From the NCBI GenBank assembly GCA_024180945.1, contig JAKSGN010000020.1:558001-622000 (forward strand): a stretch of DNA of 64,000 nt, read 5' to 3'. Shown here one piece after another: positions 7,611 through 19,639 of this stretch. The notes under the pieces are model-generated. The model saw only the letters and a program-made list of their open reading frames with translations. It had not been told where the DNA came from and did not search any database. The translations under genes were made by a program, and so were the position numbers. The stretch comes from Macrophomina tecta. Taxonomy: Eukaryota; Ascomycota; Dothideomycetes; Botryosphaeriales; Botryosphaeriaceae. Each line of letters opens with the position of its first letter. The stretch's first letter is position 1.

Positions 7611-9566
7611 CTGTTAGACTGTTCGGTGGAGCCAAGCAGGGCCAGTGGATCACGGGCATTGAAGAAACGAGCGAGTGCGTGGTCGGGTGCTGTACGTACG
7701 AGTAGTGCTAGGCTGGCAAGGCAAGATGGATCACTGGAATGAGCCGGAGCAGCTGCGGAGTGGAAGGGCAGAACCAGGGCTTGCCTCCGGCCACGAATGG
7801 CGGCGCACGCCGCCCAGCTGGGGGCCTGCGGCGATCTCTATCAACGGTTAGAGCAGCATCATCGTACAGCGACAGACCGCCAAAGCGTGGACACGCCTGA
7901 TTTGCCCTGCGCGGGTGGACCGCTTGCTCTGCTCGATTTTTTTTTTTTTTTCAGCGCTGCTCTCGTATCTCTAGCCTCTGCCAGCAGCGCCTGCTACGGG
8001 GCGATTGGGGCTGGCCTCGGAGCAGAGCCACGGAGAGCTGAAAGCAGCAGCGCCGCATGCTTGAAACGCCCTTGTTGGCCGCCGGCCGCCCGCAGACACG
8101 GCGCTGCACCGAGCACCGTTTTGCCTTGCGGCTTGCAGCGGCGGCGCCGCCTGCTCCGTCAAGGGTCCTGAGATCGAGCGTCATCAGGCACCGGATCCTC
8201 GTAGCATGTCGGTCATGTGGACCTGGAGAGGACGCGCTCGTGAGCATTTCCCCAGGTCATCGCTAGCGGACTGTGGGGGAAGAAGGACACCAGGACTGGG
8301 CGCCTGATTAGTCAAGCCGGCGCAGTTGCCGGGCGGCACGGCGACGCGTCTCTGAGAGCGGGAGGCCGGGAGGTCACGATGTGGCGAGTCGACGACGTGG
8401 TGGAGCGGAGCGGAGGCCAGGAGCCGCGCTTGCCCTCGTTGGCCCACTTCGGTCTTTGCTCCATACCGCCTTTTGCCTTAAAACTTCACCAGTGCGTGTC
8501 CATCGCGCCCATCACCCGGACGCGTTGCTTCATCCGGCCCTCTTGGAGAATCGCAGCTTCATCATGCGCCGCCAATCCCCTTCGTCACACCGAGCCCCAG
8601 CCATGCCACTGATCGCGCCCCTCATGCGCCCAGCCGACGTTGGGCTCTCCATGTGTTTTGGGATGATTGCGCCCGCTCAAGGCTGATGCCAGTGCCTGCG
8701 TCAGGCGCTGCCATTGCCAAACTTAGCTAGCCACTCAGATAACTCAGATTGCTCTCGGTGTGGATTCCTCCGGTGCCGTCGATCTTGCTCCTTTTCACAT
8801 GATGGGAACGGCCTCCACGGCTTCCGTTACTGCAAACAAAAAACAGGGTGCGGGAAGAATTTGCACGACTCATGCCACGAGGCTGCTTCGATTCGAACCG
8901 AACCCCCAAGAGTGGGAACCGCTGTCACGTGGGTGGATAATGAAACTGCGACTACGTAAAGACACAATTCAACAAATCTACTACAAACAGTGTTCAATGC
9001 CTACGGACCTATATACATTTCTTTGAGCAGACTATGGCCCTCATTGACCGGGAAAATGAGAAATTCTTACACAATGATGGAATGAGCCTGTACATTATCT
9101 TCTCCATAAATGCGCATCCAAGAACGACAGAGCAAGAGTGCCTTTCTTCTGCGACCACTAGAAACCAGAGACGAGGCTCCTACTGAAAGACAACAACTGG
9201 TATGCTCCGCTACGTCGGAAAGAAATGTTGATACACAACCGTGCTTGTGTAAAGTTCTACAAGTTCTACAAGTCCTCAAGGGGTTATAAAACACTTTTTC
9301 CTGCGCGGAACAAAAATGAGCTTCATAGAAATATGATTGAAATATACATAGCGTATATATCCATAGATAATACTTCCTCTAAGATAGGATTATTCAACAT
9401 TTGTGGGAGACTGACGAGGTGGTCGTTCAGCATACCCGTTAGTGGTCTCACACATGGCGATTGAATGCGTGAGTTTTGTTTTCACATTATATTGGATCTT
9501 ACTGAAGTCTCTCTCATCAACAGCCACTCCAGTTTGAGCTGGACGTAAGGAGTTGAATATAATAAC
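7611..9566. other. long gene-poor stretch upstream of the MFS transporter
   Basis: Probably the promoter and an unfound first exon of the MFS transporter (-). The part at 7700-8650 is GC-rich with a 15-nt T run at 7937-7951. The part at 8750-9560 is AT-richer. A CACGTGGG element is at 8935-8942. Open frames here are short, overlap each other on both strands and have no recognisable domains. Confidence 0.4.
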
Positions 9567-9655
9567 TCCTCCGTGGCGCAATTGGCTAGCGCGTCTGACT
9601 GTTATTGGTCTCCAAAGCAATCAGGAGGTTGACAGTTCAAGCCTGTCCGGGGGAG
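9567..9655 (+). tRNA. tRNA-Asn (GTT) with 15-nt intron
   Basis: A full cloverleaf can be drawn. Acceptor stem TCCTCCG/CGGGGGA has one T-G wobble. D-stem is GCGC/GCGC and anticodon stem TCTGA/TCAGG. The loop is CT-GTT-A, then a 15-nt intron (9605-9619), then A. The variable loop is AGGTT, and T-arm GACAG-TTCAAGC-CTGTC carries the B box. The discriminator base is G. The intron sits at the canonical position between nucleotides 37 and 38, so normal tRNA-splicing-endonuclease processing is expected. A nine-T Pol III terminator follows directly. Confidence 0.95.
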
Positions 9656-9659
9656 TGTC

Positions 9660-19478: not shown

Positions 19479-19496
19479 AAAAAAAAAAAGGCAAAA
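19479..19496 (-). terminator. Pol III terminator of initiator tRNA-Met
   Basis: Read on the minus strand, a four-T block (19496-19493) and then an 11-T run (19489-19479) follow the tRNA 3' end by 14 bases, as expected for RNA polymerase III termination. Confidence 0.85.
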
Positions 19497-19509: not shown

Positions 19510-19639
19510 TAGCTGCGAATGGTTTCGATCCATTGTCCTCCGGGTTATGAGCCCGGCGCTGCCCAGATTGTTAGTGTATAGTTCGGAGTGATAATTGTGC
19601 GATGAGAAATGCTTACCGCTTCCGCTGCGCCACGCAGCT
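19510..19639 (-). tRNA. initiator tRNA-Met (CAT) interrupted in the D-stem by a 58-nt spliceosome-like intron
   Basis: Exon 1 is 19639-19617, the intron 19616-19559, exon 2 19558-19510. Joined, the exons give a 72-nt initiator tRNA. Acceptor stem AGCTGCG/CGCAGCT has the A1-T72 pair typical of eukaryotic initiators. The D-arm is GCGC-AGCGGAA-GCGC. Anticodon stem CCGGG/CCCGG has loop CTCATAA. T-arm AATGG-ATCGAAA-CCATT carries A54 and A60, hallmarks of the initiator, and the discriminator is A. A box (TGGCGCAGCGG) and B box (GGATCGAAACC) are intact. The interruption lies between nucleotides 24 and 25, far from the canonical 37/38 site. It begins GTAAGC, contains CACTAACAA with the branch A at 19571, and ends CAG. 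It has no TTTT that would stop Pol III. Confidence 0.93.

Follow-up and report, generated by a model that had tools for sequence, protein, structure and literature searches.

Textbooks assign the introns of nuclear tRNA genes to an endonuclease and a ligase dedicated to them, and the bulge-helix-bulge is the motif recognized by the archaeal and red-algal tRNA endonucleases. In the eukaryotic enzyme, the Sen54 subunit touches the D-arm of the pre-tRNA and sets the cutting distance (PMC4090602). The U6 snRNA gene of fission yeast, which is made by Pol III, carries a short spliceosomal intron of the mRNA type (PMC10484740), so an uncapped Pol III precursor would not be without precedent as a substrate of the spliceosome. 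Among the matches listed from titles and the beginnings of abstracts in the open-access literature, outside which most subscription papers and preprints lie, we found no description of tRNA genes with spliceosomal introns. Introns of this type, and the precedent in U6, are familiar already; their presence in tRNA genes, where they interrupt all the copies found of two families, is not known to have been described.

The gene described here is an interrupted initiator tRNA-Met gene in a 64,000-nucleotide stretch of Macrophomina tecta DNA, which we call the window (Table 1). Read on the minus strand, it runs AGCTGCGTGGCGCAGCGGAAGCG, then a 58-nt insert from GTAAGC to GGGCAG, then CGCCGGGCTCATAACC...GCAGCTA; the insert begins with GTAAGC, carries CACTAAC and ends in CACTAACAATCTGGGCAG. 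The original prediction placed it at 19616-19559, between tRNA positions 24 and 25, with GTAAGC, CACTAAC and CAG as its signals, and our reading of the minus strand agrees on coordinates and motifs alike (the numbering of the exons is our own: linear nucleotide 23 corresponds to standard position 24, position 17 being absent). The junction is indeed ambiguous by one base, a G, and a single register gives GT-AG ends. Removing the insert leaves the 72-nt initiator tRNA that had been foreseen, with A1-U72, A54, A60, a GCGC/GCGC D-stem, a CAU anticodon and three G-C pairs adjoining the anticodon loop. ARAGORN reads this spliced form as tRNA-Met(CAT) and sees no gene in the unspliced one. The gene is also missed by ARAGORN in bacterial mode and by Rfam at its gathering score; at a lax threshold, Rfam scores it at 25 bits (cut-off 29), with intron letters falsely serving as one strand of the acceptor stem. 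The A and B boxes were assigned by the box consensus. The window holds one ordinary tRNA gene as well, which is probably tRNA-Asn by its anticodon and is called Asp by ARAGORN.

Table 1. Features of the interrupted initiator gene and of a second tRNA gene in the window.
Feature	Position	Strand	Detail
Initiator tRNA-Met(CAU) gene, interrupted	19510..19639	-	read by ARAGORN as tRNA-Met(cat) only without the insert
Exon 1, 23 nt (tRNA positions 1-24, position 17 absent)	19617..19639	-	A1 at 19639
Predicted spliceosomal intron, 58 nt (tRNA positions 24/25)	19559..19616	-	junction common to 4/4 initiator and 3/3 Trp genes found
5' splice site GTAAGC	19611..19616	-	GTAAG in 7/8 tRNA inserts, GTAGG in 1/8
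Branch site CTAAC	19570..19574	-	presumed branch A 19571, 12 nt from intron 3' end
3' splice site CAG	19559..19561	-	YAG in 8/8 tRNA inserts
Exon 2, 49 nt (tRNA positions 25-73)	19510..19558	-	identical to C6 copy
A box TGGCGCAGCGG, within exon 1	19622..19632	-	read from sequence
B box / T-loop GGATCGAAACC, within exon 2	19521..19531	-	read from sequence
Pol III-type terminator	19479..19496	-	TTTT 19496-19493 and 11-T run 19489-19479; first T run 14 nt downstream
Ordinary tRNA gene with canonical anticodon-loop intron	9566-9656	+	anticodon GTT by our reading

The source genome of the window (54.1 Mb, 37 contigs) was searched for other initiator tRNA-Met genes, intact or split, as the original prediction had proposed, and all four that it yielded are split. 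An anticodon-arm pattern matches these four places only, which lie on C6, C18 (the window), C35 and C37. A BLAST search with the spliced 71-mer returned the same four, each match beginning at nucleotide 23. In every one the insert follows tRNA position 24 and measures 55-58 nt, and the inserts are nearly unrelated in sequence apart from GTAAG, CTRAC and YAG. Neither BLAST nor the pattern found an intact initiator gene in the genome; a 17-mer spanning the spliced junction has no exact match there, and when up to two mismatches are allowed it has 44 matches, its reversed control 46. The finding of the insert is confirmed and holds generally across this genome.

Exon 1 is identical in the C6, C18 and C37 genes and differs in C35 by two compensated changes. 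In none of the three distinct initiator sequences is any of the 21 cloverleaf pairs broken, and in four pairs both partners have changed: two belong to the acceptor stem, where exon 1 pairs with exon 2, and two to the T-stem. Slid controls were 29-42% paired, with at most one doubly changed pair. Because four compensatory changes occur among three distinct sequences, a small sample, the initiator exons appear to be under selection. The C37 copy (C37:855560-) may be poorly expressed, since its branch site, CTGAC, is weaker and its first T run lies 48 nt downstream of the gene. When the four unspliced precursors were folded, no special structure was found (z -0.16 to -0.84), and the D-stem was lost in three of them, the minimum-energy fold of C35 keeping a D-stem-like helix across the insert.

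The same junction is used in a second family. Three tRNA-Trp genes were found (C7:3081224-, C7:3082104- and C20:579256-), each with a D-arm insert of 53-68 nt at 24/25 plus a canonical intron at 37/38, which by our reading is 11, 16 or 23 nt long, in agreement with ARAGORN for two of the three genes. BLAST with the spliced form found no intact Trp gene in the genome. Each Trp gene therefore combines two introns of apparently different kinds, one with GT-AG ends in the D-arm and one at 37/38, and by our numbering the anticodon stem of all three has an A31-C39 mismatch. A third family is represented by a Leu(CAG) gene on C32 (C32:1546420+), where the insert lies at 25/26. A Leu(CAG) gene on C7 that has no D-arm insert (C7:1994279-) matches its predicted spliced form at 100% identity over 111 nt; the flanks of the two genes are unrelated over about 1.5 kb on each side, so the C32 and C7 genes form a natural presence/absence pair for the insert. 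The D-arm is likewise uninterrupted in a third Leu(CAG) gene, on C5, named so by ARAGORN.

Tested on the spliced forms, including the C7 Leu gene, ARAGORN recognized 9/9 as tRNAs and misnamed three as Gly: both the C32 and the C7 Leu genes, whose identities rest on the related C5 gene that it calls Leu(cag), and Trp_C7a, whose identity rests on exons identical to those of Trp_C20 and of its neighbour Trp_C7b. Applied to the unspliced interrupted genes, it found no gene in 7/8 and a spurious tRNA-Cys for the C6 initiator.

Further split tRNAs were sought with several patterns, all of which presuppose a donor at or near GTAAG and could miss other families. A gapped pattern of A box, donor and branch site gave 8 matches against 1 in the reversed control, namely three initiators, one Trp, one Leu and three that by eye are not tRNAs. 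An ungapped pattern of D-arm and donor, in which up to two mismatches were allowed, gave 60 matches against 36, those with zero or one mismatch being only the four initiators and the three Trp genes. The pattern for an 8-nt D-loop gave 41 against 38, and no tRNA-like ones were noticed among them by eye; a Leu/Ser pattern recovered the split Leu gene and nine two-mismatch matches, some of them known intact tRNAs, against 2 in the control. A regular expression run over 120 loci and the window found only the split Leu and two Trp genes, and it demands a TTCRA T-loop, so it is blind to initiators. In the list from the ungapped pattern, the 21-mer TAGCTCAAGGGCAGTGGTTAT occurs 20 times on many contigs, in several cases less than about 50 kb from a contig end; it is a dispersed repeat and not a tRNA. 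The pattern TCTCATAATCNNNAGG for the elongator tRNA-Met had no match in the genome; that gene may have another sequence or be interrupted by an intron.

In the search with the tRNA family of Rfam, 63 of 1323 candidates were scored and 62 matches obtained, which makes it unsuitable for gene counts. Of 57 sequences (56 of these 62 matches and the other tRNA of the window), ARAGORN recognized 56 as tRNAs; any introns that it reported lie in the anticodon region, the only place where it seeks them. A cluster of 13 of the 62 matches lies on contig C17 at about 55-99 kb; those that were read are AT-rich, and the cluster is probably mitochondrial DNA. Beyond this genome, viral contigs, an uninformative collection for the purpose, held no match to the split initiator, to an intact fungal-type initiator or to the split Trp start, and a further viral scan gave at least 120 matching stretches, none of the 120 listed carrying the fungal T-loop. 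One match in a collection of genome contigs was rejected, as it lies in a bacterial MAG with no surrounding tRNA.

The eight tRNA inserts, from the four initiators, the three Trp genes and the C32 Leu gene, were compared with introns of protein genes. They are 53-68 nt long, seven starting with GTAAG and one with GTAGG, with YAG at the end of all eight and branch motifs CTAAC (five), CTAAT (two) and CTGAC (one) that leave 10-12 nt after the presumed branch A. All have the G at +5 and the AG end of U2-type GU-AG introns, and both the distance of the branch motif and the length agree with those expected of spliceosomal introns in this species. Outside the signals, the inserts show little resemblance to one another (highest z 2.7 and median 0.5 over all 28 pairs). 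For comparison, eleven introns from three genes of the window (those for the peroxisomal carrier, CIT1 and PMT2), mapped by spliced alignment knowing only GT and AG, span 51-68 nt, two of the eleven being placed differently by one other homologue; CTRAY is present in eight, 9-21 nt remaining after its A, and GTAAG starts four. The insert length had been said to fit the protein-intron range, and it does; the shared GTAAGC donor is likewise borne out in CIT1 (14892) and PMT2 (4031). By its proteins the genome is near to Diplodia seriata, with 96% for PMT2 and 88% for the intron-containing ORF of the peroxisomal carrier, which points to a Botryosphaeriaceae-like fungus; for CIT1 the best match is 97%, and the best named relative is Pseudovirgaria hyperparasitica at 92%. 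Given GT..AG, the chance of the signal set is 4e-5 to 2e-4 per insert, a figure for signals picked after being seen and for a branch distance that excludes the Trp_C7a insert (10 nt). As stated at first, the window insert holds no TTTT, and neither do the other seven; shuffling puts the probability that all eight lack it at P=0.425, so avoidance of T4 is not significant. Judged by these motifs, the tRNA inserts look like the introns of this genome, if anything with stronger signals.

How the introns arrived is a separate matter. A mobile introner family that spreads spliceosomal introns could recently have entered tRNA genes, an account that concerns origin only and is compatible with removal by the spliceosome. 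We consider it unlikely. The C32 Leu(CAG) gene with its insert and the identical paralogue without one are what recent gain would leave, as would precise loss, and the pair looks like the product of one or the other; however, the Leu insert, the sole insert searched, matches nowhere else in the genome at E up to 10, and the eight inserts do not form a sequence family. For the initiator and Trp genes, insert positions common to all paralogues found, together with deep divergence, suggest that the introns are old.

As to removal, the inserts could be ectopic tRNA introns of the red-algal and archaeal kind, with the tRNA splicing endonuclease making the cuts and tRNA ligase sealing the exons; we regard this as very improbable. 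The inserts lie at 24/25 (initiator, Trp) or 25/26 (Leu) by our numbering and not at the canonical 37/38 position of the endonuclease, and the initiator insert splits the D-arm, the region that Sen54 contacts. At the junction, only one of the four central pairs of a bulge-helix-bulge can form in 4/4 initiators and two of the four in 3/3 Trp genes, so the motif is missing from all seven. The Leu(CAG) junction is more permissive, with three of the four central pairs in place and all four at a site two bases away. Excision by the endonuclease pathway alone was the outcome that the original prediction had set against itself; the initiator junction has no bulge-helix-bulge, a motif that some ectopic introns elsewhere also lack. 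Non-canonical introns of the endonuclease type are known in Cyanidioschyzon merolae and in a nucleomorph, and many of those in the nucleomorph have no defined bulge-helix-bulge (PMC3978253), so the absence of the motif is an incomplete test. The endonuclease would nevertheless leave unexplained why GTAAG, a CTRAY at a nearly fixed distance and YAG recur in inserts that are otherwise nearly unrelated.

Even less probable is that the interrupted genes are dead copies and that intact genes which escaped us supply the functional initiator and Trp tRNAs. The terminator of the C37 gene is distant, the assembly may have gaps, and an intact initiator gene might be very divergent or sit in such a gap. 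Against this, no intact copy was found by BLAST or by pattern, and four compensatory changes with no broken pair are unexpected of dead initiator genes. The same junction also recurs in seven genes, and a T run begins 6-14 nt downstream in 7/8 interrupted genes.

Self-splicing can be dismissed almost outright, since group I and group II ribozymes are far longer than inserts of 53-68 nt, and the 58-nt insert matches no Rfam ribozyme family and shows no ribozyme core. Its one point of support is that group I introns are present in bacterial tRNA-fMet (PMC8450103).

With the endonuclease motif failing at the initiator and Trp junctions and ribozymes excluded by length, the spliceosome remains. 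Removal of the inserts is very likely spliceosomal, and we hold with high confidence that the window insert is most likely a genuine intron of the spliceosomal kind, in an initiator gene that Pol III would transcribe. The original prediction of an mRNA-type intron removed by the spliceosome is thus supported by divergent inserts with constant splice signals and by the lack of any intact initiator found. Because every initiator and Trp gene found carries the insert at the same D-stem junction, translation in this fungus would depend on the spliceosome. In the pathway that we propose, Pol III would make the precursor by way of the A and B boxes, both of them intact, GUAAG would be paired by U1 and CUAAC by U2, and the intron would leave as a lariat in the nucleus, after which the D-stem could form. 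For Trp and Leu, the spliceosome would act first in the nucleus, the D-arm would then fold, and the tRNA endonuclease would cut at 37/38 only afterward, because it positions itself by the mature D-arm. Coupling of translation initiation to splicing could follow. We think it probable, if a step less firmly, that these introns would make up a third class of nuclear tRNA intron: all initiator and Trp tRNAs would be maturable only by the spliceosome, Trp would need two machines in a fixed order, every translation start would pass through the spliceosome, and splicing capacity could set the level of initiator.

Two tRNA families essential to all protein synthesis appear to depend on the spliceosome instead of the dedicated enzymes, and its substrates would be short, presumably uncapped Pol III precursors with first exons of 23-25 nt. 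If this is true, translation initiation is tied to splicing capacity, and the genes offer a test of how the spliceosome handles Pol III RNA, with the intron-plus/intron-minus Leu(CAG) pair serving as a natural test of the effect of the intron on tRNA output. D-arm introns would also suggest how the initiator genes of some fungi could escape tRNA finders. In a few eukaryotes, missing initiator labels have been ascribed to mislabelling, in a count from which incomplete fungal genomes were left out (PMC8450103). The curated set of Aspergillus niger has 284 tRNA genes with one Trp only, and its two listed Met(CAT) genes are 72 nt long and intronless, their status as initiator or elongator not being stated (PMC6108506). 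Split Trp genes could be hidden there too.

Among known systems, the U6 intron of fission yeast resembles the tRNA inserts in being a short spliceosomal intron in a small structural Pol III RNA (PMC10484740), but there the host is a spliceosomal snRNA and not a tRNA, and the intron lies near the catalytic nucleotides; the single U6 gene found in the present genome (C37:3184782-3184880; 47 of 2731 candidates scored) is intronless. Canonical 37/38 introns, handled by the Sen endonuclease and Trl1 ligase, also interrupt nuclear tRNA genes, and the Trp and Leu genes here have such introns as well, whereas the inserts differ from them in position (24/25 or 25/26), GU-AG ends, a branch site and, in the initiator and Trp genes, the lack of a bulge-helix-bulge. 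The ectopic introns of Cyanidioschyzon merolae and of nucleomorphs share non-canonical positions in nuclear tRNA genes with our inserts, but their removal is ascribed to the tRNA endonuclease, and those of C. merolae have a bulge-helix-bulge, while the inserts here carry spliceosomal signals. Finally, the group I intron of bacterial tRNA-fMet is likewise an intron in an initiator tRNA gene, but it is self-splicing, sits in the anticodon loop and belongs to a bacterial host (PMC8450103).
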